64,000 nt of DNA from Diplolepis rosae (taxonomy: Eukaryota; Arthropoda; Insecta; Hymenoptera; Diplolepididae). The stretch covers positions 2,856,501 through 2,920,500 of the forward strand of contig JAPYXD010000391.1 of the NCBI GenBank assembly GCA_030998225.1. The letters are read 5' to 3'. Every line of letters begins with the position of its first letter. Within the stretch, counting starts at the first letter, position 1. Position numbers and translations under genes: made by a program. This document shows positions 5,103 through 28,923 of the stretch, in pieces. Under the pieces are notes generated by a model. It saw only the letters and a list, made by a program, of their open reading frames with translations, ran no database searches and was not told where the DNA came from.

Positions 5103-5351
5103 TTGTTACGTCCCGAGCTAAGGTGAGGGTAGATTGGGGAAGTTAGGAAAGGGGAGGAAAGTTTGCTGATTAAATCAGAGTTGTAAATTCTGATTATTTA
5201 TATTTTTGTGGGATCGTGGTCACTAGTCAAACCTATGCGGCTCGAGTTGTTCACAATAATAACAAATTTGATTATATTGCGGTGTACAAGCTTTATTAAT
5301 TAAAAGATAGGTATACAATAAGTTTTGAGATGCTTATGTGTATGACTTATA

Positions 5352-6108
5352 AAGGGTTTCCCAATAAGGGTGATATGTTTTGAAATTAAAAAAAAACACT
5401 GAATATTCATTCGGAATTGATCGAAATCTTTTTTATTATATTGGATATTCTATGCCATTTATGATTTAAACAATATATCGGCCAAATGTCCCCCGAGACT
5501 TAAGCCAAAAATGCGCCTCATCAGAAAAGATAATTTTTTGATGAAAATTGGGATCATTTTCAATTGATTCCAGAGCCCAATCCGCGAACTCCCGACGCAA
5601 ACGATGGTCATTAGGCTTCAATTCTTGGGCCAGAATCATCTTATAGGGATGCAGGTCAAGATCCAATCGCAAAATACGCCAGGTAGTCATCCTGGACAGG
5701 CCCAATTCCTGAGATCGGCGTGGCACGGACAATTCACGGTTTTCCTCGATACTGGCCTGTACGGCGGCTATATTCTGTGTAGAACGTGCGGTACGCATAC
5801 GATTTTTAGGCTTAGTATCCAATAGAGTAAATTCACTCTCCAACTTATCGATTATTCGACGAATTGAGAGCGCGGATGGAGCAGAATGACGACCATATTT
5901 TGCACGATATGCTCTTTGAACACCGACAAAACTTCTCGAATTTTGATAAAATAATTGGACAATTTCCAAACGTTGTGGAAGCGTGAAACTACTCATGATT
6001 AAATGGCAAACCTTACTGATGACAACTGACAGCAGACGTCAAAAATTTCAGTTCAAATGAGCCCGATAGGGACATTCAAAATCATATCACCCCTATTGGG
6101 AAACCCTT
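5352..6108 (-). mobile_element. 757 bp DNA transposon in the LTR, TA target site
   Basis: The element has terminal inverted repeats beginning aagggtttcccaatarggg, about 26 bp with one mismatch, and is flanked by TA at 5350-5351 and 6109-6110. The other LTR shows the empty site (acttatactac at about 23061-23071), which proves both the boundaries and the 2 bp duplication. Tc1/mariner/IS630-type by its TA target and its transposase. It carries only the N-terminal part of that transposase, so it is an internally deleted, non-autonomous copy. Confidence 0.9.
5466..5996 (-). pseudogene. Truncated Tc1/mariner-superfamily transposase (HTH plus first catalytic Asp)
   Basis: A 176-residue open frame starts MSSFTLPQRLEIVQLFYQNS. 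An N-terminal helix-turn-helix region (residues 1-60; RLEIVQLFYQN, SALSIRRIIDKLE) is followed by a second HTH (residues about 80-110; ELSVPRRSQELGLSRMTTWR) and the start of the catalytic core with the first Asp in KIIFSDEAHFWL (residues about 155-165). The frame then stops. Family members are normally about 330-350 residues, so the remaining catalytic residues are missing. A related copy at 45189-45679 has kept the catalytic half instead. Confidence 0.8.
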
Positions 6109-6164
6109 TACTACTTCTCAGGATGAGAAGGCAATATTAAGGGTTTTATGCGTTTATGAGTTAG

Positions 6165-6445
6165 TAATACAGGTTTTGAGATGCCTATATATGTAACTCA
6201 CGCATTAAAAGTGTGCGTCTATATAAGTCAATAATACAGGTTTTGAGATGCCTATATATGTGACTTCCGCGTTTAAGAGTGTGCGTCTACAAGTTATTAA
6301 TACAGGTTTTGAGATGCCTATATATGTAACTTGTACGTTTTATGCAAATATACTAGGTTTTGAGATGCCTAGGTATACAACTCACGCACTACAATTGGCG
6401 TTATAGTTAATATAATAAGTTTTGAGATGCTTATTTATATAACTT
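6165..6445. repeat. LTR tandem repeat, five units (sixth unit at 5316)
   Basis: Units of about 50-70 bp share ggttttgagatgcctatata followed by tgtaactya, starting near 6170, 6237, 6304, 6353 and 6418; a sixth lies at 5316 on the far side of the inserted DNA transposon. The same array is at 23032-23400 in the 5' LTR. Repeats of this kind inside an LTR are candidate enhancer or protein-binding arrays; function is inference. Confidence 0.75.
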
Positions 6446-6935
6446 ACGCTTTTTCCTTGCTTGAGAAGGCAAGAGAAAGAGTTTTGTCGTATATTTCTCC
6501 TTGTTGATAGCTGGATAACGGCACAATCCTGGCTGGAGTTAAGTAGTGCTAGTCAAGTAGTACAGGAAGCGTATCAGACAATCCAACTTGCTTGCTAAAC
6601 ACTGGTTAAGTTCGTTTTCTGTAGATTTAACTCTCAGGACTCGACTTAATACGACGATACACGTATTTAACGGCACTTATCAGTTCACGACCACCGGACT
6701 TGCACCACTTAAGGACCAGGGATTTTATTTACCAAGTACCGAGGTATTCCTTGTGTAAGGTACCGATTTACGAATATCGAAGGGTCAATTCGTGACACCG
6801 ACAGTATGACTTGCGGACGGAGTGATTACCGACGTTAAGATCTTGAAGACTGAACAGCTACTAGCGAAAAGACAACCTCCAGAGGTAAATCTGGGGTTTA
6901 TGTATTATTGATTATTCCCATGGTGGGAGAGTGAC

Positions 6936-7012
6936 TGCTAATTTGTAGATCGGCACGTACGTTGCTAATTTGTAGATCGGCACGTACAGTGATAATTTGT
7001 TGATCGGCACGC
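6936..7012. repeat. LTR triple repeat, about 26 bp period
   Basis: Three consecutive copies of taatttgtwgatcggcacg at about 6938, 6964 and 6990, repeated identically at 23892-23970 in the other LTR. A candidate regulatory array within the LTR. Confidence 0.75.
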
Positions 7013-7691
7013 GTCTGGCGGCAATGTCGATGACCATGCTTGCTTACAGTCGCGTAAACTCGTGAACTCGCGGCTAGTTCTCACGCAGGTCATACTATCG
7101 GGATCAAAGTCCATTGATGCTCGGTGCTGTATCTCTTTCTCTCGTCTTTTCAGCTATGTTATTTAATATACATATGTTGACAGGTCAGTGCAATTGTACT
7201 AGGTCATAATTGCACTGACTCATCTATTATTTTACAACTTGGTTTATATTCTTATAGTATTTATGAAGTACATGAATTTTTGGTGTTTATATTCTAAAAT
7301 ATTATTCAAGCTAATTTGCGGATCCCCAATAATGTGATTGATATTATTGATTGATTATCCATTATTGGTTATCGCTGATTATTATGTGCTGTTGTTTGAT
7401 TATTATTACCAATCATTTAATGGCTGTTCTTAACAATAATGAATATTATTGTTATTTTTATTAAATAATTATTAATTTTTTATTGCCTTGGTTCTCTACA
7501 TTACCGACGGTAAGGTAGTTTTCCTATTTTATGCAACTCAACTGCCTTGTCGATCTCAGGTAATTATCCTATCGACAAGTAGTTATCATCGCAGTGATGT
7601 GATTTACGTTCGTCAATCGCCTGGTTGTATGCCGGGTTGCCTTGCTGTAGGCGTGATTTTAAATTTTTATTAATTTTTACGGGATGTAACA

Positions 7692-7706
7692 GTCCTCCCT
7701 CCTTAG
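7692..7706 (-). promoter_or_regulatory. Polypurine tract of the errantivirus-like element
   Basis: On the minus strand the sequence is ctaaggagggaggac, directly abutting the LTR start TGTTACATCCCG. This is the expected place and composition of the primer for plus-strand DNA synthesis. The same 15 bases, with similar following sequence, recur at 10703-10717. Confidence 0.8.
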
Positions 7707-7822
7707 AATAGTCATCGTCCTCGATGACAAAAGTTAGTAATTAGTTGGCGATTGACGCTCGTAATTCATTTTATTGTTAATAACGATCAGGTTATTTTCC
7801 TTATTCTTGTTTGAATTAAATC

Positions 7823-8062
7823 TTATTTTCGCAAGTTATCGTTTTCTATATTCCTGCGGATTCTGTGAAATGAGTGTATTTTTGTTATGTCTAGTGTATC
7901 GTGTCTTGTGTCATCCAGAAGTCCCAAGCGATTCAGGTAAGTGATACTATTTCTTGCATTTGTCTCATATTCTTCATAATTTAGTTTATTAATTTCTTCA
8001 GTTCCAATTGTGCATAGTAAGATTTTGTAATCATCATCAGTTTGTGAGATGGGCAGCTGCAC
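7823..8062 (-). CDS. Unrecognised 79-residue frame, sense strand of the retroelement
   Basis: The frame starts MQLPISQTDDDYKILLCTIG and is rich in Asp, Asn, Arg and Ile. It lies between env and the 3' LTR on the same strand as gag and env. It has no signal peptide, membrane segment or motif I recognise. It could be a small accessory frame, the remnant of a displaced env or pol end, or chance. The antisense gene starts just beyond its 5' end. Confidence 0.25.
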   Translation of the reverse strand: MQLPISQTDDDYKILLCTIGTEEINKLNYEEYETNARNSITYLNRLGLLDDTRHDTLDITKIHSFHRIRRNIENDNLRK

Positions 8063-8104
8063 TCTTTTGTGTCGAGGATGTGTTAGCTGTCAGTTAATAG
8101 TTAA

Positions 8105-8225
8105 CCTTCGAGAACCAAGGATCATCTTCGAGCGGGTCAGCCACCATCCCCTACTCCCCTTGGATTGAGAACAACTCTCATTTGCCCTACAATCTTTTGG
8201 TGGATCGTGGGGTACCTCGTGATCT
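8105..8225 (+). other. Candidate 5' untranslated exon of the antisense gene
   Basis: More GC-rich than its surroundings and ending in a strong donor, gatctag|gtgagt at 8226. It lies about 150 bp upstream of the first good ATG (8377). The transcription start is not defined. Confidence 0.35.
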
Positions 8226-8376
8226 AGGTGAGTGATCTTCTCCTTCCTTCTGTTTTTTTTTGTGTTTCGTTAAGTGGGGTGTGTTATATAATAGCTTCGG
8301 TTTATTCCCATTATTTCTCAAAAGTGTCTTCGCGAGTGCCTTCGTTGTTTCCCTTTTTTGTTACTTCTCGGGCCGA

Positions 8377-8833
8377 ATGATGGATGTTCCTGGATCTGAA
8401 GAGGCCGTTGCTGATTTTGATTTATCATTGCTGGATGATGTGGCTCAGCAATATCCGGTTAACGGGGGAGACGCGTCTTCTTCTGGCAGTTCTTCAGATG
8501 CATATATAAATTTCTTTGATTTCTCGACTGGTGCTGGGCGATGCGTTTCGAGATCGGATAGTTTATCTCTGCGCATTTCGTCGATAGAGGAGCGCTTAAG
8601 GATTTACCACGTTGCTGTTTGGGGTGTCAGGGCGGATACTATTCTCTCAACCTTCGCGGCTTGTTGTTCCGAACTTTTTGGATGGTCTGTGTCTGTTTCG
8701 GACTTCACGGTAATCCATAGGTTGGATGCTCGTCGCACGGGGTTTTTGCTGAGTGTGTCATCCCTTGCCCTTAAGCGGCAAATTTTGTTGAAGACTGCCG
8801 ATTTTCAGCTTCGAGGGTTCTTCGTAGGAATCT
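8377..8833 (+). CDS. Antisense accessory gene, exon 1 (unknown function)
   Basis: The preferred start is the ATGATG at 8377; an upstream in-frame ATG at 8260 falls in what looks like intron after the donor at 8226. The frame reads MMDVPGSEEAVADFDLSLLD, then a Ser/Asp-rich acidic stretch and a basic, hydrophobic part (SIEERLRIYHVAVWGVRAD, SSLALKRQILLKTADFQLRG). It stops at 8836-8838. Splicing into exon 2 needs phase 1. The only late donor in that phase is a weak tct|gttgac at 8834; a better-looking gtagga at 8824 is out of phase. The 3' junction is therefore unresolved. It lies opposite to gag and env, between env and the 3' LTR. No family recognised. Confidence 0.45.
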
Positions 8834-8965
8834 GTTGACATGTGTGTGGCTGTTGCTCTTAATTTATTTTTTTGAATTCCAATGTCGTTGTTTTTATTGC
8901 TAATTTTGTTTAGTTGCTTCTTATGCATATGTGCAATTAATTAAAATTCTTTTTTTTCTTTTCAG

Positions 8966-9287
8966 GTTCTTATATTTGTGCGCCTCAAATTCCACCTGCC
9001 AGCTCTATGAGGCAGGTGTACAACTTAACCTCCTCCTTGGTGCCTTGGATGCGTTTTTTATGGTTCCTGACGCAGGAACTGGTGTCAGGAGACCAGTCGA
9101 GTGGTGGAGCAAGCCGTGGACTCGAGCGAAGTGTGCATGTTGATCTGCACACTCTGGCGGAGGCTTGTCGGGAGTCCCTTCACATAGTAGAAGGGTTGAA
9201 CCGACTGGTGGTGGAGGACATCTCGCCCTTGCCTGCGCAGTATCGCCGAGTTTGCTGCCATTCGGTTCCTTCTGACATTTGTCTGGG
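8966..9287 (+). CDS. Antisense accessory gene, exon 2
   Basis: The acceptor is a pyrimidine-rich tttcttttcag ending at 8965; the donor is ctggg|gtaaat at 9288. The open frame enters with two bases of a split codon and reads SYICAPQIPPASSMRQVYNL, then LVPWMRFLWFLTQELVSGD and LHTLAEACRESLHIVEGLNR. Without splicing it would stop at the TAA created by the donor (9289-9291). It leaves in phase 2, which matches exon 3. It is rich in Leu, Arg and Glu and probably helical. No known domain is recognised. Confidence 0.55.
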
Positions 9288-9393
9288 GTAAATATCATTT
9301 TTTTTATTACTATCATTATTTTTATTATTATTGTTTGTGTATATATATTTTGATTCATTGTTCATTTCTTTATAATTCTTTGTTTGTTTTCAG

Positions 9394-9500
9394 CGTCCAG
9401 GGTACCGAAGATAGGTTCTGTCGCTGTGGACGATACGTGAGGATATCGACGTCGGAGCCTGTTCGATGTTCCTGCGGGTCCTTACTGGCTAGTTACGAAG
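9394..9500 (+). CDS. Antisense accessory gene, exon 3 (Cys-x-Cys pairs)
   Basis: The acceptor is tgtttgttttcag ending at 9393 and the donor is gaag|gtaatt at 9501. Joined to exon 2 the frame stays open and reads VQGTEDRFCRCGRYVRISTS, then VRCSCGSLLASYE. Two CxC-G pairs about 17 residues apart (FCRCG and RCSCG) look like a four-cysteine zinc ribbon or knuckle. It leaves in phase 1, which fits both exon 4 and the alternative exon at 10350. Confidence 0.6.
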
Positions 9501-9591
9501 GTAATTAAACTCCTTTCCCTTTTTTTTCGTTTGGTACTACCCTTTTTCTTTTCAAATTTTAGATTTTTAATTAATTATTTGTCTTTTTCAG

Positions 9592-9689
9592 TACCGCGGC
9601 GTGAGGTAATTTACTGCCGTCGGCCAGTGATCAGAGGACATCGGGCGTTTCCAGGACTGCGGAATTCTCCGTATCATCCACGGATCTGA
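9592..9689 (+). CDS. Antisense accessory gene, exon 4 (terminal)
   Basis: The acceptor tttgtctttttcag ends at 9591. The frame continues from exon 3 with PRREVIYCRRPVIRGH and ends with RNSPYHPRI and TGA at 9687-9689. It is strongly basic (Arg-rich), as in nucleic-acid-binding tails. About 330 residues are predicted in all if exon 1 is joined. Confidence 0.55.
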
Positions 9690-10349
9690 CGTGTTTGTGT
9701 GGTTTTGTTGTATGTGTTTGTGTGTGTATGTTTTACGTATTTTATGTATATTTTATATGTGCAGTATTTACAGATTTTGGCTTGTAAAAACTTGTTATTT
9801 CTCTTTTTGAATATTTAAATATATATTAGGAATTTAAACTGATCAATCGGTAGAATGTATTGAATTGATTCAATTTAATAGAATTTTATTTTTTTGTTCT
9901 CATAATTATTTCGTGGGATTTGTAATTGTATCAATTCAATACATTTTATTTTCTTTGATTTATCCTTCCAAGCCATTTCCTTTTCCTATCATAATTCGTG
10001 TTCAAGTTTATTTACTATTTTTAATTTTACTAAATATTTTTAGTATTATCCACATATCTATGTAGGCATATGTGTGTAAAATTTTGTGTATACCCTATAG
10101 GGTTTTCATTTTCAATAATCTATACATATGCGTACATGTATATTATTCATACTTCTATAATTACTAGTGTTTGGTTGGTCAAAGGTTCGTTGTCCTTTAA
10201 TTAATTTTAATATTAAATTTTCTTCCTCTTACTTTTTTTTTTTTTTAATAAAATTCTTTATTATTAATTCTTAATTAAGAGAAATGAATTTCTGTTAATT
10301 AAGCCTTTATTATTAACTTTTAATAAAATTGGAACGAACTTTTGATCAG
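9690..10349. other. No coding signal; AT-rich
   Basis: Follows the stop of exon 4. It contains T-rich runs (10228-10245) and several aataaa/attaaa-like hexamers that could serve as polyadenylation signals for the antisense gene. No family recognised. Confidence 0.4.
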
Positions 10350-10585
10350 GAAAACATACTGGTGAGAATGTTGCTGACGATGATAGGCGTGCTGGTCATC
10401 TAGTCGCTCCCATTGACGTAGAGAGGCGGATCGTTGTTCTTCCTCTATCTGTGGTGTCAGGTTGCATGCTCGGTGCCATACTGCTTACTGCTTCCTCTCT
10501 TCGCATGATTATTTTTCTCGCGCTAGTCATTTTGTCGGGAGCGCCTTATCTCGTTGACGTAAGTTTATCCTGCTGGACTGCATAA
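10350..10585 (+). CDS. Candidate alternative exon encoding a hydrophobic C terminus
   Basis: The acceptor is ttttgatcag at 10340-10349. The frame entered in phase 1 (compatible with exon 3) is open for 77 codons to TAA at 10583-10585. It contains RRIVVLPLSVVSGCMLGAIL and MIIFLALVILSGAPYLV, two hydrophobic runs that could be membrane segments. A strong donor (gttgac|gtaagt at 10559) lies inside it, so it may instead be an internal exon of 209 nt. Together with exon 4 this would give soluble and membrane-anchored forms by alternative splicing. This is inferred from frame and splice sites only. Confidence 0.35.
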
Positions 10586-10702
10586 ATGCTTCGCAGGTTA
10601 ATCTAATTACAGGCGTCGCTGACTGGTACTGTAGAGTTCTTTCATTTTTATTTATTTTTTTGATGAAAAAAATTTTTTTTTTTTTTTCGTGTAACTTTCC
10701 GT

Positions 10703-10717
10703 GTCCTCCCTCCTTAG
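10703..10717 (-). promoter_or_regulatory. Second polypurine tract copy
   Basis: The same 15 bases as 7692-7706 (minus strand ctaaggagggaggac), followed by a similar block (gtcctcggtgaca versus gtcctcgatgaca). It lies just downstream of env, so the two copies bracket the antisense gene block. Confidence 0.65.
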
Positions 10718-10812
10718 ATTTGTCAGCGTCCTCGGTGACACAGGAGGTGGTATTTTAGGCAATTCGGATATTTCGAATTGGAAATTTAGTAGTTTCTGTT
10801 TGTACTCGAATT

Positions 10813-12172
10813 TCAGGGATGTTTACTGTATGTAAGTATTGTAGTTCTGTTGGTGCCTCTTCCTTTTGAGGGGTTCTTTAAACATTTTAGGATTGAATTT
10901 TTTCCAAAATAAATCATAATTATTATTATTATGATTATTATTGCACTAGATCCTCCTGTCCAGTATTTATTATGTAATTGTTTATTAAAATTTTGTTCTT
11001 CGAATTCTGTCAATTGTTCTTCTATGGTTGAAAGTGATTCGTCTGTGTGGAGCCTTTTCCAATTTTCTATGTGAGATTTTTCCCACGTAAAAGGTTTTAT
11101 TTTAGGAAGTTGTTGAATTGTGTCCAACTTTGGAAGAATTTCAGTTATATTGAAAGTAAAATTAGGGTTGTAAATATATTCTTCTGTCCTTTTATTAATC
11201 TGAGTTCCGGTTAGGGTGGTATATTTCGTCCTTGCAGTACATCCTGTACCTAATCGGAGTAGTCCTGAATTGCTGAGGTAGCCTTTTTCCAGTTTTCCTT
11301 TTATGCAGTTGATGCTTATTGGCTCTGGATTTTTTGTTGAATAAATCCAGGCAGATAACGAAGGGATGTAGTTCCAATACATTTCTTCTTCTATTTTCAT
11401 CCTGATGTCACAAAGGTGAATGGTATCCTTTGATGGTCTTATCAACATCAAACACTCGCATGAGTTGGTTGTGGAAACTTCGTGCTTGGGCTGGGTGTTT
11501 TCGCAGATGGTGTTGTAAAAGGTTTTTTGACAATTATCATAATATTCTTTGCTTACGAGAAAGAATTTTCTTTCATCATTTGCCAGGGCAATATACGGAG
11601 TTTTAGGTATTATATAAATAGATGCTGTTGTATTCGGAGATATTTGTTGATACACTGGATGTGCATAAATTTCATAAAGCTGATACCCTGCCTTATCAAG
11701 TAAGGGTATGTCGACGGCGATGAGCAGTCGTCCAGAGCTGATTCTAACATCTGTTTTTCCTAATTTTGATAGTTCTTCTGCTCGAACATGTGAGGTGGGT
11801 ATTGGAAATTCGTTTTCACTTAATTTAAAATGTATTTCGGTAATGATTTCTTGGAGTTGTTCTTTAGTGAGAAGGAGTGGATGTAACTTGTTTTTTCGTG
11901 CTGCTTCTACTATTTTTATAAATTGTTTCAAACTTTCGGCTAAGTGATTAAGTTTTATCTCGATATGGTCAGCCCATTGTCTTATTTTTCTGAAATATAT
12001 GATGTTACTCCAGAATTGATTATGCGATTCTATGTTTTTAATGGTCTCGTTTAGTTGTTGTTGTATGTTGGCGATCTCTTGCGATTTTTGATTCAATTCT
12101 AGGTGAATGTTGTTGATTTCTGATTTGACAATGTGGGTCTGTTTTCTCAAAATTTTGCTGAGGTTATTTTGT
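10813..12172 (-). pseudogene. env: Errantivirus-like env, 3' part (transmembrane subunit), split by insertion
   Basis: The frame is open from the insertion site to the stop at 10813. It has a Gln/Asn-rich helical region after the junction (NNLSKILRKQTHIVKSEINN), a Cys-containing ectodomain (NSCECLMLIRPSKDT), and near the C terminus an isoleucine-rich membrane anchor (SSAIIIIIIIIMIYFG, about 10967-10908) followed by a basic tail of about 30 residues. This matches the membrane-anchoring subunit of insect errantivirus Env, related to baculovirus F proteins. The isoleucine run is encoded by an ATT/ATA microsatellite. The 5' part is at 18247-18788; the two parts total 1902 nt, a multiple of three, so the only visible break is the 6 kb insertion. 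Confidence 0.8.
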
Positions 12173-12180
12173 CTGTCATG
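12173..12180. repeat. Target site duplication of the 6 kb element, left copy
   Basis: CTGTCATG lies at 12173-12180 and again at 18247-18254. It is part of env, duplicated on insertion. An 8 bp duplication is typical of hAT elements (also P and some others). Confidence 0.9.
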
Positions 12181-15100
12181 CAGTGTGCACAGATCTGATA
12201 CCGACGCAGTCACAACTACAGAAGCACCTCCTGTCCGTGAGGAGCGAGTAGGGAAAGGCGGTGGCGCGCGCTGCCTTTCTTTCTTCCTCGTCACTCTGGC
12301 ACGCGAGAACGACTCATCCCACTTCTCCTTATTCTCCTCGCTTCCTCCATGCAATGCTATTTTTAGATTTCACATTTTACGCTTTCAGTTATCGAGTCGA
12401 AATTGAGAATTGTATTTCTCTCGACTCCGTGCAAAAGAGGCGCGAAGCAGACGACAATTTGAAATGTATGAAATATGTTATTTGAGAAACAACACTTTTT
12501 TTTCAAATACATTGGAAAAAATCTGCCTGAAATAAACATCTAAAAGATCGTGCAAAATTTTATAAGCATTTGAACATTTCAAAAATAAACTTTCAGTAAA
12601 ATTTCTTGCCAATAAATGTTCAAAATTTGAATCAATATATATTTTTCTATTTAAATTTTCATACTTCTAATCAATTTTGTACATTTAAAAAATTTTCAGT
12701 TAGAAATATATTCTATTAAGAAAAAATAAACATAAAATTCAAGTTTAAAATTTACATTCTCAGTTTTATGTTAGAAATATTTTCATCTTACATTATTTTA
12801 GACTAGGCACAGACTTTTCATTTAAAAAACGAAATGTTCTACAAAAAAGGAAAAATTTTCTAATAGAAGTGGATAAATCAAAAAGCTAAAATATGTGTTA
12901 TCTTCATATGAACAAGTAAATATTTACCAATATCAATTTTTACATGAACATTTTTGTTCGAAGTGTTGAAATCTTGTTACAATTTGACAAGATCATATGG
13001 ACAAGTTCAATCTTTTAAATGAAATATCTTGTGATTTTTAATTTGTCTGTTCTTCTGAAATCGGGGGAAGATTTAAAAAGTAAAAAAAAAAAAATTTCCA
13101 ATGGAATCCAAGGTCAATAAATGCTAAAAGTTTTAAATCAAGATTTTAATTACAAAATTTTGAAGCTTTGTAATTAGCTTTATAAATGACTACTTGTATC
13201 AGAAAGTAATTCAGCTCTGTACAGCATTTCTATAATTTGAATTCAAAATAGGTGCTTAGGCCAGAAAAAAGTAAGATAAAAATTTTTTCACCATAAAACT
13301 AAGAATGTAAATTTTAAATTTATTATGTCATATGTTTATCTCTTCTTATTGGAAAATACTCTGCACATAATTCTCTGTTTCGATATTTTTTAAATGTACG
13401 CGAACATTTAAGAAATTCATAAGTATTTCACCTTTTTATGAAAATTACAAATTTCCAAATAACACTTTGATTGACAAAGCTAAAAATTCGTCAATAATTT
13501 GTATATTGTATTGTAAGTTTAAAAATAGGATGACTTAAAATTTCACAATGACTTTATTTTTCAAGTACTTGAACCTTTCTTCAATTTTGAGAATTCCTTC
13601 AAAGGTTTATTTCAGGTGAGTGACTTTTTCTCTTTTTAATGAAAAATTTTATAATTCTAAATTTGACTCATCTTGTATCATTGTAAAAAGATTTTGAAAC
13701 CTCAAAAAAAATTTTTCAGTTTAATTCAAAGTCAATAAATATTCAATGTTTGAAATTGAAATATTAAGTGAAAGATTTTCAAGCTCTGGGAATCAACTAC
13801 TTTAATAACACAATTTTTCTTCTTCGTAAAGCATCTCAATTTTCAAATTAAAAGTCTCCGCATAGGTTACAAAAACGTAAGATGAAAATACTTTATATTA
13901 TAAAATATAAAATATCGATTTCAAACTCAAAAATTATTTGTATCTTACATATTTCACGAACTTAAGTATCTATACTAAAAACCGGAAAGGCCATCTACTT
14001 TCCTCAATATTATAATACCGGTAACACCAAAATGTACAAAAAAAAATTATGTGTCTGAAATAAAAGTCTTGAAGATCTTGAAAAAATAATAGGAGACTTG
14101 AATACTTTTAAAATAAACTTTCAGTGAAATGGTGAACTCAATAAATGTTCAAAACTTAAATCAAGATATCAGTTTACAAATCTTTAGTTGCGTAAATTGA
14201 CTACTTCAATTTGAAAATTACTTGAAAAAATATTATATTTAAAAAATTTAGCCACATAAAATAACGGTTTGAAATCCACATTCATAGATTCATGGTAAAA
14301 GCAGGTCAAAGTTTATTAATCTTACGTCTTAGTGGCGTATGCGCAGACTTTTAATTAAAACAATAAAATGCTTTACAGAAGGTCGAAATTTTCTTATTAC
14401 TGTAATTGATGAAATTTATGGAGTTAAAACAATTTTTAATTGATGTTTTTGCACAAACCTTCAAACATTCATTAATTTAAAATTTTACTCAAAATTTACT
14501 CTTTCAGCGCTCAAATCTTTTGACAATTGTACAAAATCTTATAAATATTTATTTTAAGCATATGTTTTTTATAATATTCGAAATATAAGTGTAATTATTT
14601 TAATTGAATATTTCGTAAAATTTTGAATTTAGTTGATCTTGCGAAATTGTTGAAAGATTTGAACACTGATCAAAGAATCTTTTAATGAAATTTAAAGTCA
14701 ATAAATGCTTAAAGTTTTATCTCATGCTTCTTTGGTTTAAAATGAAAATATTTTGTACCGGATTTGAATTTAAATTTCATCCTAATTTTATGTAGTCTAA
14801 GCACAGACTTTTATTTTAAAAAATATTTATTGATTTCAACTCCGTCATAAAATTTTATTTCGAAGTGTTTAAATCTTGTTACGACTTCACAAGATCTTAT
14901 GGATGTTTTTCCAAATATCAAGAAAAAAATTGTAATCTTTAAAATGAAATAATTTGTCAGTTTCAATTTTCCTATTCTTGTGGATTCGCAGAAAAATTTG
15001 AACACTAAACAATGAATTTTTCAATGAAATACAAAGTCAATAAATGCTTTAAGTTTTATGTAAAGATATTAATTACAACATCTTCAAGTTTTATGAATCA

Positions 15101-18100
15101 ACCACTTGATTTAGAAAATACATGTAATTACTGTTTTGAACGTTCATTGAACGATAAAAAATTTTTTCTTTCAAAACAAAATTAGTTATTATTCACTTAG
15201 AAAAAGATTTGATTGAATCAGAGAAAATGATTGTTTGAACGACTTTCTTTGATTCAAACAAATGATTTATTGAAATGAAATAAAATTTATTTGATTTATT
15301 TATTAAATGTTTGTTTGGATCAAATTAATTTTTCTTCAAAACAAAGAAATTAGTGCATTGATTTATGGTCAAACATATAATTTGTTTGATTTACGGCAGA
15401 AATTTATTTGATTTGAAAAAATATTTATTTGGTTCAAAGATATTTTGTTTGAATCAAATAAATTTTGGTTCATTAAAACAAAACATTTCTTTACGTCAAA
15501 GAAAGTGTTTCAAACAAATAATTTTTTTGCTTCAATCAAATATTTTTTCTGAGTGTGTATATATTCAGAGCCTTTTAAAGATACAATCTGTTATTAAATA
15601 TACGCTATTTTTTAATTTAATGAGGAAGAAACCAATCATTTAGTTTGCAAAAATAATATTTTGTATCGTTCAATGAACGTTCAAAACTATAAATATATGA
15701 AAATATTTCAACTTTGTAGAGCATTTTTATATGTTGAATTCAAAAACTGTGCTTAGGCCACAAAAACGTGAGATGAAAATAGTTTTAGTAAAAAAGTGAA
15801 TATATCAATTTTGAATTTAAAAAGTACTTGCTGAAGAAAACTTCTGGAAAATATTGTAGAAATAATGGAAGATTTAAAAACTCGAAAAATAATTTTTTAG
15901 CAAAATGAAAATTCAATGAATGCTTAAAGGTTTCAAGTTAAGATATCAATTGAAAAAGTTTTGTAGCTTTGTAAGTCAACTGTACTTCAATTAACAAAAT
16001 TTTCTTTTTCTTACAGCATTCAATTTTTTCGAAATAAAAGTCTGTGCTTAGACTACATAAAATTAGGATGAAATTTAAATTCAAATCCGGTACAAAATAT
16101 TTTCATTTTAAACCAAAGAAGCATGAGATAAAACTTTAAGCATTTATTGACTTTAAATTTCATTAAAAGATTCTTTGATCAGTGTTCAAATCTTTCAACA
16201 ATTTCGCAAGATCAACTAAATTCAAAATTTTACGAAATATTCAATTAAAATAATTACACTTATATTTCGAATATTATAAAAAACATATGCTTAAAATAAA
16301 TATTTATAAGATTTTGTACAATTGTCAAAAGATTTGAGCGCTGAAAGAGTAAATTTTGAGTAAAATTTTAAATTAATGAATGTTTGAAGGTTTGTGCAAA
16401 AACATCAATTAAAAATTGTTTTAACTCCATAAATTTCATCAATTACAGTAATAAGAAAATTTCGACCTTCTGTAAAGCATTTTATTGTTTTAATTAAAAG
16501 TCTGCGCATACGCCACTAAGACGTAAGATTAATAAACTTTGACCTGCTTTTACCATGAATCTATGAATGTGGATTTCAAACCGTTATTTTATGTGGCTAA
16601 ATTTTTTAAATATAATATTTTTTCAAGTAATTTTCAAATTGAAGTAGTCAATTTACGCAACTAAAGATTTGTAAACTGATATCTTGATTTAAGTTTTGAA
16701 CATTTATTGAGTTCACCATTTCACTGAAAGTTTATTTTAAAAGTATTCAAGTCTCCTATTATTTTTTCAAGATCTTCAAGACTTTTATTTCAGACACATA
16801 ATTTTTTTTTGTACATTTTGGTGTTACCGGTATTATAATATTGAGGAAAGTAGATGGCCTTTCCGGTTTTTAGTATAGATACTTAAGTTCGTGAAATATG
16901 TAAGATACAAATAATTTTTGAGTTTGAAATCGATATTTTATATTTTATAATATAAAGTATTTTCATCTTACGTTTTTGTAACCTATACGGAGACTTTTAA
17001 TTTGAAAATTGAGATGCTTTACGAAGAAGAAAAATTGTGTTATTAAAGTAGTTGATTCCCAGAGCTTGAAAATCTTTCACTTAATATTTCAATTTCAAAC
17101 ATTGAATATTTATTGACTTTGAATTAAACTGAAAAATTTTTTTTGAAGTTTCAAAATCTTTTTACAATGATACAAGATGAGTCAAATTTAGAATTATAAA
17201 ATTTTTCATTAAAAAGAGAAAAAGTCACTCACCTGAAATAAACCTTTGAAGGAATTCTCAAAATTGAAGAAAGGTTCAAGTACTTGAAAAATAAAGTCAT
17301 TGTGAAATTTTAAGTCATCCTATTTTTAAACTTACAATACAATATACAAATTATTGACGAATTTTTAGCTTTGTCAATCAAAGTGTTATTTGGAAATTTG
17401 TAATTTTCATAAAAAGGTGAAATACTTATGAATTTCTTAAATGTTCGCGTACATTTAAAAAATATCGAAACAGAGAATTATGTGCAGAGTATTTTCCAAT
17501 AAGAAGAGATAAACATATGACATAATAAATTTAAAATTTACATTCTTAGTTTTATGGTGAAAAAATTTTTATCTTACTTTTTTCTGGCCTAAGCACCTAT
17601 TTTGAATTCAAATTATAGAAATGCTGTACAGAGCTGAATTACTTTCTGATACAAGTAGTCATTTATAAAGCTAATTACAAAGCTTCAAAATTTTGTAATT
17701 AAAATCTTGATTTAAAACTTTTAGCATTTATTGACCTTGGATTCCATTGGAAATTTTTTTTTTACTTTTTAAATCTTCCCCCGATTTCAGAAGAACAGAC
17801 AAATTAAAAATCACAAGATATTTCATTTAAAAGATTGAACTTGTCCATATGATCTTGTCAAATTGTAACAAGATTTCAACACTTCGAACAAAAATGTTCA
17901 TGTAAAAATTGATATTGGTAAATATTTACTTGTTCATATGAAGATAACACATATTTCATACATTTCAAATTGTCGTCTGCTTCGCGCCTCTTTTGCACGG
18001 AGTCGAGAGAAATACAATTCTCAATTTCGACTCGATAACTGAAAGCGTAAAATGTGAAATCTAAAAATAGCATTGCATGGAGGAAGCGAGGAGAATAAGG

Positions 18101-18246
18101 AGAAGTGGGATGAGTCGTTCTCGCGTGCCAGAGTGACGAGGAAGAAAGAAAGGCAGCGCGCGCCACCGCCTTTCCCTACTCGCTCCTCACGGACAGGAGG
18201 TGCTTCTGTAGTTGTGACTGCGTCGGTATCAGATCTGTGCACACTG
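12181..18246. mobile_element. 6066 bp giant inverted-repeat element, hAT-like ends
   Basis: The ends are CAGTGTGCACAGATCTGATA and its exact reverse complement, flanked by CTGTCATG on both sides. The left arm is 12181 to about 14816 and the right arm about 16030 to 18246; they are near-identical inverted copies, except that the left arm has about 415 bp (12478-12893) missing from the right. The loop is about 1.2 kb (14817-16029). There is no transposase; reading frames in the GC-rich tips are mirrored in both arms and look fortuitous. The CAGTG terminus and 8 bp duplication suggest hAT. The structure would fold into a hairpin of more than 2 kb and is a likely dsRNA source if transcribed. Confidence 0.88.
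15130..15692. mobile_element. Nested MITE-like element in the loop of the 6 kb element
   Basis: It has inverted ends ttttgaacgttcattgaacg at about 15132 and the reverse (cgttcaatgaacgttcaaaa) at about 15668-15687. The interior is a low-complexity run of tttgatt/caaataaa motifs. No coding capacity recognised; superfamily not assigned. Confidence 0.6.
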
Positions 18247-18788
18247 CTGTCATGTAGTTCGTTGATAGCGTTATCATATTCTTCTGCGTCGTCGGAAGTC
18301 ATCACTCCTATCACTGGTCCAATTATTGATCCGATAAAGCCTAATAGGGGTGCTCTTCGTTTCTGCATACTTGGGGGTGGGTTTTCTGCTTCTGGTGTAT
18401 CTGGTTTTATTTCTGCTAACATATTTTTTAATTCTTCATAGTTATTTTCGATTTGTTTGACTTTTCCATTCAACAGGTCTAGTCTAATTTCACTTCTGCA
18501 GTCTTCTTCTAGGGATTGGTCCAAACATGTTGAATATACGTTGTTTATATCAGTTGATATGTTTTTAGATTGGAGATGGGCTTGTAGGTGCTGTGGATCC
18601 ATATACACGACAATCCTCCAATATGTATTGGTAATACGCAAGGGCTCAACTTTGGCGTAAAATAGTCCAGGGTTGTTTCTCAATGGTTGAATTTCATATT
18701 GTGTTGGGGTGACTGGGGTTGCAAAAATAATGCCGATCAAGATCCAGGTCCATTTTTCTCGGCCTTGGGTGGGGTGTTGTTGGTCCAT
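18247..18788 (-). pseudogene. env: Errantivirus-like env, 5' part (surface subunit, cleavage site, fusion peptide)
   Basis: The start at 18788 opens MDQQHPTQGREKWTW, with a hydrophobic signal segment at residues about 14-25. A surface-subunit region follows with two visible cysteines (CLDQSLEEDC). At residues 142-145 lies a furin-like basic site QKRR, followed directly by a Gly/Ile-rich fusion-peptide-like segment (APLLGFIGSIIGPVIGVMT, residues 146-164). The 6 kb element interrupts the gene near residue 180. A candidate splice acceptor (tttctgatacgcag on the minus strand, about 18805) lies just upstream of the ATG, as expected for an env made from a spliced RNA. An old insect retrovirus-like copy; disrupted. 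Confidence 0.82.
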
Positions 18789-19429
18789 TCTGCTACTGGA
18801 AGATGCTGCGTATCAGAAAATGTATATAAGTACTTTTCAAGATAGGTTTTATTTAATCTTATCCCTTTACTCTGTTAAATTACTGTACTGTTGAATTTGG
18901 GGTTTTTGATTTATCAAAATTAAATTTTATGATTTCAATACAGTTTATTTTGATTCTTTTTAGTATACTACATGATCTTTAATTATTATTATAATTGATG
19001 CATATATATGCCTCTGCTGGACAAATACTAAAAATGTCTTCGTACTTCATTTATTTTGTCACAGTAATCTAAAAAAAATTTCTATTATTTTCCTGAAAAA
19101 GTTTCAATTAAACAAAAGTATGTTTGATGCGGTATAGTACATGTACACGATTTTGCGTGAAATTACTCTGTGTGTTTTGAAATTATAAGCATGGAACTAG
19201 AATAAGTAGCAGATATTGATTTATCTCAAATTTTCTACATAATTTCTATGCAAAGTTTTTATTTAGAGAAATTATATTTAGACAGTTTTCGTTGGAAGAT
19301 ACTTATCATTAGGTGATTGCATTTTATTCATTTAAAGCGAACAATAAAATTTATACATAAACCGTTCGAGTGAGTTAAGCCATAGTGTTACCTGAGAGCG
19401 ACCATGTTAGCCGGCTTATGATTTCACTA
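18789..19429 (-). other. Gap between env and gag: no pol
   Basis: Only about 640 bp separate the gag stop from the env start. The stretch is AT-rich, has no frame with protease, reverse transcriptase, RNase H or integrase motifs, and is far too short for a pol gene of about 3 kb. Just after the gag stop there is a good donor (minus strand ctcag|gtaaca, near 19390), so the segment may act as the env intron. Confidence 0.75.
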
Positions 19430-22819: not shown

Positions 22820-24648
22820 TGTTTCGTCCCGAGCTAAGGCGAGGGTAGGTTGGGAAAATTAGGAAGAGGGAGGAAAGTTTGCTGATTAAATCAGAGTGGT
22901 AAATTCTGATTATTTATATTTTTGTGGGATCGTGGTCACTAGTCAAACCTATGCGGCTCGAGTTGTTCACAATAATAACAAATTTGATTATATTGCGGTG
23001 TACAAGCTTTATTAATTAAAAGATAGGTATACAATAAGTTTTGAGATGCTTATGTGTATGACTTATACTACTTCTCAGGATGAGAAGGCAATATTAAGGG
23101 TTTTATGCGTTTATGAGTTAGTAATACAGGTTTTGAGATGCCTATATATGTAACTCACGCATTAAAAGTGTGCGTCTATATAAGTCAATAATACAGGTTT
23201 TAAGATGCCTATATATGTGACTTCCGCGTTTAAGAGTGTGCGTCTACAAGTTATTAATACAGGTTTTGAGATGCCTATATATGTAACTTGTACGTTTTAT
23301 GCAAATATACTAGGTTTTGAGATGCCTAGGTATACAACTCACGCACTACAATTGGCGTTATAGTTAATATAATAAGTTTTGAGATGCTTATTTATATAAC
23401 TTACGCTTTTTCCTTGCTTGAGAAGGCAAGAGAAAGAGTTTTGTCGTATATTTCTCCTTGTTGATAGCTGGATAACGGCACAATCCTGGCTGGAGTTAAG
23501 TAGTGCTAGTCAAGTAGTACAGGAAGCGTATCAGACAATCCAACTTGCTTGCTAAACACTGGTTAAGTTCGTTTTCTGTAGATTTAACTCTCAGAACTCG
23601 ACTTAATTCGACGATACAAGTATTTAACGGCACTTATCAATTCCCGACAACCGTACTGGCACCATTTAAGGACCAGGGATTTTATTTACCAAGTACCGAG
23701 GTATTCCTTGTGTAAGATACCGATTTACGAATATCGAAGGGTCAATTCGTGACACCGACAGTATGACTTGCGGACGGAGTGATTACCGACGTTAAGATCT
23801 TGAAGACTGAACAGCTACTAGCGAAAAGACAACCTCCAGAGGTAAATCTGGGGTTTATATATTATTGATTATTCCCATAGTGGGAGAGTGACTGCTAATT
23901 TGTAGATCGGCACGTACGTTGCTAATTTGTAGATCGGCACGTACAGTGATAATTTGTTGATCGGCACGCGTCTGGCGGCAATGTCGATGACCATGCTTGC
24001 TGACAGTCGCGGAAACTCGTGAACTCGCGGCTAGTTCTCACGCAGGTCATACTATCGGGATCAAAGTCCATTGATGCTCGGTGCTGTATCTCTTTCTCTC
24101 GTCTTTTCAGCTATGTTATTTAATATACATATGTTGACAGGTCAGTGCAATTGTACTAGGTCATAATTGCACTGACTCATCTATTATTTTACAACTTGGT
24201 TTATATTCTTATAGTATTTATGAAGTACATGAATTTTTGGTGTTTATATTCTAAAATATTATTCAAGCTAATTTGCGGATCCCCAATAATGTGATTGATA
24301 TTATTGATTGATTATCCATTATTGGTTATCGCTGATTATTATGTGCTGTTGTTTGATTATTATTACCAATCATTTAATGGCTGTTCTTAACAATAATGAA
24401 TATTATTGTTATTTTTATTAAATAATTATTAATTTTTTATTGCCTTGGTTCTCTACATTACCGACGGTAAGGTAGTTTTCCTATTTTATGTAACTCAACT
24501 GCCTTGTCGATCTCAGGTAATTATCCTATTGACAAGTAGTTATCATCACAGTGATGTGATTTACGTTCGTCAATCGCCTGGTTTTATGCCGGGTTGCCTT
24601 GCTGTAGGCGTGATTTTAAATTTTTATTAATTTTTACGGGATGTAACA
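22820..24648 (-). mobile_element. 5' LTR of errantivirus-like element
   Basis: A 1829 bp copy running TGTTTCGTCCCG...CGGGATGTAACA. It contains the same repeat arrays as the 3' LTR (23032-23400 and 23892-23970) and the empty TA site of the DNA transposon found in the 3' LTR. Only scattered base differences from the 3' LTR were noticed by eye. It abuts an R1-type LINE at 24649. Confidence 0.9.
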
Positions 24649-26910: not shown

Positions 26911-27433
26911 ATACAGTAATAGAATATTAGTGGAACTTGCGCCCGACGCCGTCGATCGAAGATCGTGATTCCACGCGCATCACTTTACAAAAAAATTCAT
27001 ATTTCGCACAATTTTTGAGTGCGCACCTTAATTATATACCTAAAGTTTGCGTAATACTTGGGGCTATCACTATGAATTTTTTCAGATTTTTCAAAGATGG
27101 CGTTTTCTCAAAAAATCAATTTGTTTAAAAAAACATTTTTTTTATTATTAAATTTGGAGCAAAATTTTTTCCAAAAAATACTACTACATCGGACATTTAA
27201 TGATACGTTTGTGTAATTTTTTTCAGAATTTTTCCGAGTTTCAGTTTTTAAATAATTGAAAAGGAACAAAAATATTTTTTTTTCGTTTATCCCATAACTT
27301 TTCAAATAATGCATGAAATAATCTCAAATTTTGGGTTTCTTCATTATTTATATTAGTCTATCAATCCTTAAAATGTCAAGTAAATCGGAAACATGGAGTC
27401 CTGAACCCGTCCGATTTGCCATGGAACACATCA
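26911..27433. repeat. Non-coding repeat A, copy 1
   Basis: The stretch with gacgccgtcgatcgaagatc (about 26945) through gaacccgtccgatttgccat (about 27403-27422) recurs inverted at 37373-37521 plus 41700-42050, where an LTR element has split it. AT-rich, no coding capacity. The end points are approximate and no terminal inverted repeat was identified. Confidence 0.7.
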
Positions 27434-28923
27434 TATATACGTTGACAGGTCGGTGCAATTGTACTAGGTTATAATTGCACTGACTCATCTATTATTTTAT
27501 ACATTGGTTTTTTTCATCTTATTCTCATAGTGTTTATGTAATACATGATTTATTAGTGTCTACATTTTGGAATTTTGTTCAACTTATTTTGCGGATGCCC
27601 CGTAATGTGATTGATGTTATTGATTGATTATCCATTATTGGTTATTGCTAATTATTATGTGCTAGTGTTTGATTATTATTATTGACCATTTAACGACTGT
27701 TATTAACAATAATGAATGTCATTGTTATTATCGTTAAATAACACTGGTCTGCAAGGTTTTGTTGTTGAAAAGATATGGGTCGTTTCCGGAATAATTTTTG
27801 ACGAAGAATCCGAATCCGGAATCAGAATCAGCCTATCACGTCAGAATTTTGAGATATTTGAAGTTATGTGCTCGAAAAATGGCGTTTTCGTTAATTTTGA
27901 GGTTATGTACAGGGTGCAAGAAATTTTTTTGGTTTTTTCTCAAATCTCATCATTTAGCACTACTCTTTTCCTTCTAAATGTGCTATTAAACAGTCACGAG
28001 CGATTTTTTTTCACAAAGATACGGCCAAATCAAGTTTTGACCTTTTTCCGAACAACCTTATGAGCATTCACATTGACTCTATGGTGCAAACCATTTTGCA
28101 TTCGAAAATTTATCTTGAAAATTTGTGCATGCGGGTTTCGATGGTCTGTGAATAAGAACTTACAGTCAGAAAATTGACATTAGAGAGCGAAATCGTTTAA
28201 TTTCGTAAATTTCGATCCACCATTTTGTATCGGCCATCTTAGAAATGGAAATGTCAATTTCCTGACTATAAATTCTTATTCACAGACCATTAAAACCCGC
28301 ATGCACAAATTTTCAAGATAAATTTTCGAATGCAAAATGGTTTGCACCAAAGAGTCAATGTGAATGCTCATAAGGTTGTTCGGATAAATGTCAAAACTTG
28401 ATATGGCCGTATCTTTGTGAAAAAAAATCGCTCGTGACTGTTCAATAGCTCATTTTGGGGGGAAAAAGTAGTGCTGAATTATGACAATTGAGAAAAAAAC
28501 TAAAAAATGTCTTGCGCCCTGTACATGACCTCAAAAGTAGCAAAAACGCCATTTTTCGAGCACATCACCTCAAATATCTCAAAATTCTGACGTGATAGGC
28601 TAATTCTGATTTCGGATTCGGATTCTACGTCAAAAATTACCCCGGAAATGATCATTCGTTTTCCAACAACAAATACAAACTCATTATTTGAGACCTCTGT
28701 AATTATTAATGTTTATTGGTTTGGTTTTCTACATTACCGACGGTAAGGCAGTTTTCTTATTTCATGCAACTCAACTGCCTTGTCGATCTCGGGTAATTAT
28801 CCTTTCGACAAGTAGTTATCATGGCAGTGATGTGATTCACGTACGTCAATTGCCTGGTTGCATGCCGGGTTGCTTTGCTGTAGGCGCAAATTTAAATTTT
28901 ATTCAATTTTACGGGATGCAACA
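27434..28923 (-). mobile_element. Third, partial LTR of the errantivirus-like family, split by a foldback element
   Basis: gttgacaggtcggtgcaatt at 27434 and the following sequence match 24135-24648 in the 5' LTR with more divergence than the main pair. It ends in acgggatgcaaca at 28923. The 5' part of the LTR is missing. No polypurine tract follows, so this is an old solo or truncated LTR. Confidence 0.8.
27742..28699. mobile_element. 958 bp foldback element with CACTG end, 3 bp target TAA
   Basis: It begins CACTGGTCTGCAAGG and ends ...GAGACCTCTG, flanked by TAA at 27739-27741 and 28700-28702. The corresponding uninterrupted LTR sequence (ttaaataattattaat at 24416-24431) has a single TAA. 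The two halves (about 27742-28200 and 28240-28699) are imperfect inverted copies; catttgcattcg-type and aaaatttatcttgaaaattt blocks appear on both arms. CACTG ends and a 3 bp duplication suggest the CACTA/CMC group. Non-coding. A second copy is at 46163-46713. Confidence 0.78.

Follow-up and report, generated by a model that had tools for sequence, protein, structure and literature searches.

The window analysed here is a 64,000-nucleotide stretch of the genome of the hymenopteran Diplolepis rosae (GenBank assembly GCA_030998225.1, contig JAPYXD010000391.1, positions 2,856,501–2,920,500 of the forward strand). Its minus strand carries what appears, from its long terminal repeats (LTRs) and a Baculo_F-type env that lies downstream of pol in a related copy (L048), to be an env-bearing Ty3/gypsy element of the errantivirus type. 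A segment spanning 7692–10702, with env on one side and the 3′ LTR on the other, has on its plus strand a predicted multi-exon gene, here called X, and a second open reading frame (ORF), Y (Table 1).

Table 1. Features of the element, its plus-strand segment and a related copy; positions are those of the window, except where a copy is named, and fractions count copies
Feature	Position	Strand	Basis
5′ LTR	22820..24648	-	match to other LTR; TGTTAC...GTAACA ends
3′ LTR	5104..7691	-	match to 22820–24648; TGTTAC...GTAACA ends
Presumed gag ORF, 530 amino acids	19430..21022	-	position; 87–99% DNA identity in related copies
env, N-terminal part	18248..18812	-	Baculo_F, E 3.1e-13
env, C-terminal part	10813..12179	-	Baculo_F, E 9.5e-35
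Foldback element within env	12180..18247	.	inverted arms; 6-bp target duplication
Polypurine tract by env, first copy	10703..10740	-	duplicate of 7692–7729
Polypurine tract by 3′ LTR, second copy	7692..7729	-	duplicate of 10703–10740
X exon A, presumed non-coding	7692..7936	+	donor (7936) CAG/GTAAGT, 32/34
X exon B, first coding	8002..8227	+	acceptor (8002) 30/32, donor (8227) 30/30; ATG in copies; codon-position-3 variants
ORF Y, 153 amino acids	8377..8838	+	within the B–2 intron of X
X exon 2	8966..9287	+	acceptor 35/37, donor 35/38; shared-variant test
X exon 3, two CxCG motifs	9394..9500	+	acceptor 37/38, donor 37/38
X exon 4, the final coding exon, with basic tail and stop	9592..9689	+	acceptor 37/37; stop (9687) 33/36
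Two AATAAA signals	10247..10327	+	in 28 and 26 of 39 rows
Alternative hydrophobic exon of the original prediction	10350..10585	+	unsupported as coding
Double-stranded RNA (dsRNA)-binding ORF	L048:2319-2933	-	Pfam dsrm, E 7.8e-11

The original prediction had joined three plus-strand exons (exon 2, exon 3 and the last coding exon) in one open frame through GT/AG sites, and this chain was borne out. Its splice signals comprise TTTCAG acceptors and GTAA donors, and a search of both strands of the 64 kb (acceptor score at least 3, donor score at least 1.5, introns of 55–200 bases and at least 450 coding bases) returned it as the sole three-exon chain. These thresholds were chosen with the observed chain already known, and the splice matrices were approximations; at laxer thresholds the runner-up reached a summed splice score of 18.2, against 29.4 for the observed chain. 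None of 60 Markov-resampled windows held any such chain. The GC content of exons 2–4 is 54–56%, and that of the two introns between them 16% and 24%; when this layout was shifted along the window, 5 of 62,900 placements reached the observed contrast, all lying no more than 3 bases from the proposed boundaries. The three-exon chain is real, and not a product of chance. Its joined product also contains the two CxCG pairs and the basic tail that had been described.

Searching 757.7 Mb of the host genome (428 contigs) with positions 8966–9689 gave 44 matches in about 40 copies, a lower bound, at 85–100% identity. Stretches of ~3.3 kb around 38 other copies were aligned with the window; some end at contig ends, and of three C192 copies the stretches of two are in the set. 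The LTR lies at its expected side in 29 of the 38, and env at its expected side in 25, and the segment therefore moves with the element. Across the alignment, the splice dinucleotides of X are kept in 92–100% of the copies with letters at those positions. Selection was assessed on the basis that changes found in a single copy are mostly neutral decay, whereas shared changes, defined as those in at least four copies, have passed through replication; variants in two or three copies were placed in neither class, and both the shared/singleton and the tree-based tests skipped cells in stretches with less than 72% local identity.

The copies also place the first coding exon of X at exon B, 8002–8227. 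This exon ends in a consensus donor (TAG/GTGAGT), and an ATG stands at the position aligned to 8107–8109 in 30 of the 32 other copies with letters there, with none in the window copy. From 8101 onwards, 11 of its 14 shared variants fall at codon position 3, a signal confined to the frame continuing in phase into exon 2. Two stops stand in this frame just ahead of the start-codon position (8101–8109), and exon A is accordingly read as untranslated; its 5′ end may lie within the LTR. In exon A itself, 7 of 11 shared variants fall at one codon position, in a frame ending in phase 1. The original prediction had instead pointed to an upstream frame at 8377–8833, which on that model would be the first coding exon; it might also serve as an isoform beside 8002–8227. 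The phases across 8833/8966 do fit, and the GT required there (8834) survives in 32 of 35 copies, but the donor itself (GTTGAC) is weak and not among the 30 best of the region, the stop of the 8377–8838 frame is kept as a working stop would be (TGA in 33 of 35 copies, TAA in another), and exon B offers a better donor with the same end phase as well as the start codon. Use of 8377–8833 as an exon is therefore unlikely, and 8002–8227 is preferred. As the sole in-phase donor of this frame is weak and its stop conserved, 8377–8838 is more likely a separate ORF within the intron of X, Y, which would be expressed from unspliced or internally started RNA. The claim of a multi-exon coding antisense gene inside an env-bearing retroelement is thus upheld by the copy comparison, with its first exon moved. 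The predicted X product has 215 amino acids, an isoelectric point (pI) of 8.8 and two CxCG motifs, its last 70 residues having a pI of 9.85. X is whole, with the start, six splice dinucleotides and 215 codons to the stop, in 11 of the 38 other copies, two of them from the diverged group.

Patterns of substitution point to purifying selection on the spliced frame. With 8377–8832 and exons 2–4 pooled, shared variants comprise 37 nonsynonymous (N), 50 synonymous (S) and 1 stop change, against N 258, S 116 and 20 stops among singletons (p = 6e-6), whereas the other two frames display no such effect (p = 0.48, and p = 0.08 in the reverse direction). The contrast is present in exon 2 (shared N 13, S 19; singletons N 93, S 30; p = 0.0004), and the last exon has N 2, S 9 shared against N 25, S 13 among singletons. 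On a tree of 32 rows (31 copies and the window, omitting L014, L029 and L042–L046, which have large deletions), changes in X number N 32 and S 61 on internal branches, compared with N 226 and S 128 on terminal ones (p = 1e-6), and in-frame and off-frame internal changes differ at p = 5e-15. The ratio of nonsynonymous to synonymous substitution rates (dN/dS) was estimated against 12 and 11 diverged copies chosen from the 38, and in five pairs among these copies; for X it is 0.21–0.40 between the window and 11 diverged copies, and near 0.25 in subfamilies with dS up to 0.30. In a conservative-substitution test on protein relatives, the observed mean for exon 2 was reached by 1 and 0 of 300 simulated neutral runs; this test was uninformative for Y, for which 25 to 207 of 300 neutral runs attained the mean observed, and the DNA tests were used in its place.

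These results bear on the two checks on other copies that the original prediction had proposed. Other copies with this LTR carry the conserved exons with dN/dS below 1 on the plus strand, and they do not accumulate frame-breaking changes at a neutral rate, the frame being kept and the older changes mostly synonymous. As the splice dinucleotides are kept, the older changes are synonymous in this frame and dN/dS is 0.21–0.40, the comparison of copies indicates that the family carries a conserved, intron-containing antisense coding gene under purifying selection. Were X instead a relic, captured whole with its introns and merely drifting in the copies, this would explain why X or Y is broken in most of them; the breaks, however, are mostly private to one copy, the changes that predate insertion leave the frame intact and fall preferentially at synonymous sites, and dN/dS remains low in the more diverged subfamilies, so that a relic is very improbable. 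Still less probable is that the conserved feature is an antisense non-coding RNA, for instance one steering small-RNA silencing, with the frames as by-products. Antisense non-coding RNAs are known for the micropia element of Drosophila hydei, according to passages of PMC7264820, but selection here follows codon position, and does so in the spliced frame alone.

ORF Y has a pair of ATG codons, the first kept in 30 and the second in 33 of 35 copies. Its frame is open in 14 of the 38 other copies, one of which (L028) has an in-frame deletion; Y is deleted in copy L044. On the tree it has N 49, S 47 on internal branches and N 139, S 91 on terminal branches; in-frame and off-frame internal changes differ at p = 0.0003, and dN/dS lies at 0.21–0.42 in 10 of 11 comparisons, the remaining one being 0.82 (dS 0.036). 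Its protein relatives, from ENA contigs, comprise ten proteins with 69–97% identity and one fragment at E 0.013, several of them truncated or frameshifted. The first 60 residues are acidic (pI 4.05), and residues 64–152 are modelled by AlphaFold2, with modest confidence (mean pLDDT, the predicted local distance difference test score, of 53, and ~60–82 in the core), as beta-beta-alpha-beta-beta-alpha; a Foldseek search with this model gave no match at E 0.001 in the PDB or among viral models. The acidic N-terminus may resemble an activation domain, and the core a domain of the FP25K or L1-ORF1 type. Viral contigs held no relatives of Y or gag, and PHROGs none of Y or exon 2.

Several observations weigh against X and Y as functional genes. 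X is broken in 27 of the 38 other copies as well as in the window copy, and the search for domains and structures in the joined product that the original prediction had proposed gave no domain, the top Pfam match being a zinc ribbon (E 0.03, under its cut-off) and the top solved structure having an E-value of 0.017. No spliced product was found among 14 protein relatives, those that pass an exon end running on into intron or other sequence. The 12 splice-dinucleotide columns of X have undergone no internal-branch changes, against 2.8 expected at the intron rate, and five changes on terminal branches; taken alone, this is not significant (P = 0.06), as is also true of the difference between internal and terminal branches for Y (p = 0.14). 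Transcription and splicing of X are predicted from the DNA sequence, and a regulatory role for X and Y is drawn from analogy.

A hydrophobic alternative exon at 10350–10585, proposed in the original prediction, was rejected as coding: it is open in the window, but shows no protein-level selection among the copies and is open, by our own criterion, in just 5 of the 38 others. A one-base difference followed by a stop is present in 18 of the 38, dN/dS ranges from 0.35 to 1.47 when the window is compared with diverged copies that align well, and internal branches carry N 19 and S 7. Its acceptor is nevertheless kept in 32 of 35 copies, some diverged copies remain open, and 26 of 39 rows have a GTAAG donor at 10558; the region may be an older coding or untranslated exon. 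It is also GC-rich, with 0.034 shared variants per site compared to 0.11–0.16 in most of the module. The nearby pair of AATAAA signals is a possible poly(A) site of antisense transcripts.

The two polypurine tracts at the edges of the segment are identical at 34 of 38 bases (local score 56, where 300 shuffles reached no more than 28), and the exact cores of both are found in 12 of 39 rows. As 7692–10702 lies between these copies, its position suggests that it was acquired as a module between env and the 3′ LTR, either through insertion of foreign DNA that duplicated the tract or through recombination during reverse transcription, which fit equally here. No relatives of X or Y were found outside the family in protein, PHROGs, viral contig, Pfam and solved-structure searches. 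That the exon GC content and intron structure of the module are unlike those of env and gag might point to a separate mobile element, such as a DNA transposon, that landed beside env and is copied independently. The neighbours argue otherwise, since the copies share the same LTR and env as counted above, env also being present in all 20 of a further set of flanks (see below), and the module ends bear the 38-bp polypurine duplication, with no terminal inverted repeats among the repeats listed; independent mobility is thus highly improbable. On this evidence from sequence, the segment is probably (a probability of about 0.8) an acquired accessory module with an antisense, intron-bearing gene X and an ORF Y, both under purifying selection.

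In the proposed mechanism, antisense transcription would start in or near the 3′ LTR, proceed towards env and end at the AATAAA signals. Fully spliced RNA would encode X, while RNA that retains the intron between exons B and 2, or that starts inside it, would give Y. The introns would outlast retrotransposition because the packaged RNA is the opposite strand, on which their splice signals are not read. The original prediction had gone further, holding that introns are possible solely on the non-genomic strand; on the genomic strand they are not impossible, merely hard to keep. Retroviral genomic RNAs do retain splice sites, a point also made in the abstract of PMC10309623. Tentatively, and by analogy with hbz of human T-cell leukaemia virus type 1 (HTLV-1), the likeliest role of X would be that of a small regulator, nuclear and zinc-binding, and that of Y a regulator whose acidic N-terminus is activation-like; together they would tune expression of the element.

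Elsewhere in the element, the two LTRs are 98.7% identical across 1587 bp and 96.8% across 248 bp, and both have TG...CA termini. The flanks of the element (TAAT and ACTA, compared by eye) are unlike and form no short target-site duplication; the two ends may have recombined. A Tc1/mariner-like insert (~5352–6105), with TA at both its sides, interrupts the 3′ LTR, and a partial, diverged LTR of the same type (83–90%) with an internal 424-bp inverted repeat lies at 27433–28923. In the window copy env is split by a foldback element of 6 kb whose inverted arms span 299 bp (100%) and 1937 bp (99.6%), with TGTCAT as its target duplication, and both env pieces matched Baculo_F when scanned separately. 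The presumed gag is labelled as such from its position and the related copies; Pfam gave only SCAN for it, at E 0.038, under its cut-off.

There is no pol in the interval between gag and env of the window copy. Reverse transcriptase (RT), RNase H and integrase are present in L048, the sole relative scanned against Pfam, in which env is downstream of all three. A survey of 7-kb stretches beside 20 other copies found env in every one. In 11 of these flanks extra, pol-side sequence, including a dsRNA-binding ORF, lies between the env spacer and gag; in four (L052, L055, L058 and L066) gag adjoins the spacer, as in the window (18813–19429); the remaining five have neither arrangement. Since the window copy shares the layout of the four, and 11 hold pol-side sequence, it is a member of a pol-less group inside a gag-pol-env family. 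The window copy itself is defective, with X lacking a start codon, pol missing and env interrupted.

The dsRNA-binding ORF, 204 codons long and in sense orientation, is situated between integrase and env; the window copy lacks it, and it is present in L048 and, at the same place, in L047, L049–L051, L053, L054, L057, L060, L062 and L064. The nearest solved relatives of the L048 product are TARBP2 (E 3.9e-10) and Loquacious (E 2.7e-6), and a CCHC-like knuckle was also noted by eye. It is whole in 6 of the 11 copies, with dN/dS of 0.17–0.46 between subfamilies, and is a candidate silencing suppressor of the LTR element; an element transcribing both strands would gain from a dsRNA-binding protein. 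A broader and rather doubtful proposal is that such elements are complex arthropod retroviruses with two programmes on two strands: a sense programme of gag, pol, dsRNA-binding protein and env, and an antisense programme in which X would arise by splicing and Y by intron retention. The sense dsRNA-binding protein would then shield the element from the RNA interference invited by overlapping transcripts, and thereby make an antisense gene affordable.

The original prediction had noted a resemblance in principle to antisense genes of retroviruses and plant elements, with none described for insect errantiviruses, and within the open-licence literature this stands. In the titles, abstract openings and passages of that literature, no spliced antisense protein gene was found for a gypsy-type element of insects or other animals, and the words gypsy, errantivirus, Drosophila and retrotransposon do not occur in the text covered by a term search of a review of retroviral antisense genes (PMC8622228). 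Among small accessory genes of insect gypsy-type elements, sORF1 and sORF2 of the Drosophila MDG1 group offer a parallel; according to passages of PMC11952523, their transcripts extend from one LTR to the other and give no evidence of being spliced, in elements without env. Micropia shares antisense transcription (here predicted) in an insect LTR element, but its antisense RNAs are described, in passages of PMC7264820, as having no protein-coding capacity.

Closer in arrangement are hbz and the other deltaretroviral antisense genes, which are likewise protein genes read from the 3′ side. X and hbz alike sit at the 3′ end of the provirus on the strand opposite env, and passages of PMC10186651 describe how spliced and unspliced hbz RNAs give different products. 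The differences are considerable: both X and Y lack a bZIP domain, as they do any Pfam match above cut-off, the coding part of X is divided among four exons, one of its introns contains a second ORF, X occupies a segment of its own flanked by env and the 3′ LTR, and the virus family and the branch of the host kingdom are other than those of the deltaretroviruses. The plant Ty3/gypsy elements Grande (gene23), RIRE2 and Retand (TRP28) are described in parts of PMC11963269 and PMC7264820 as having a conserved antisense gene in many copies, with function unknown, the Grande protein being nuclear; a term search of the same two sources, in the text covered, found no mention of introns in these plant antisense ORFs. 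As in Grande and Retand, X is antisense, stands where the sense genes end and before the 3′ LTR begins, and is kept in many copies, whereas no X or Y piece scanned matched TRP28 (PF04195) and the present element has a Baculo_F env.

The likeness to hbz, Grande and Retand is one of arrangement without domain homology, and by analogy it is in the manner of these genes that X and Y would most probably work. Retroelements normally shed introns with each round of copying, yet here an intron-bearing gene is shared at about 40 places, and would have been kept by selection because its strand is the one left out of packaging. Should RNA bear this out, X would be, within the open-licence literature consulted, the first antisense protein gene of a gypsy-type element with an env, and a third independent case beside the deltaretroviruses and the plant elements. 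It would make testable whether LTR elements have repeatedly evolved antisense regulators, and how they escape the dsRNA silencing that results.

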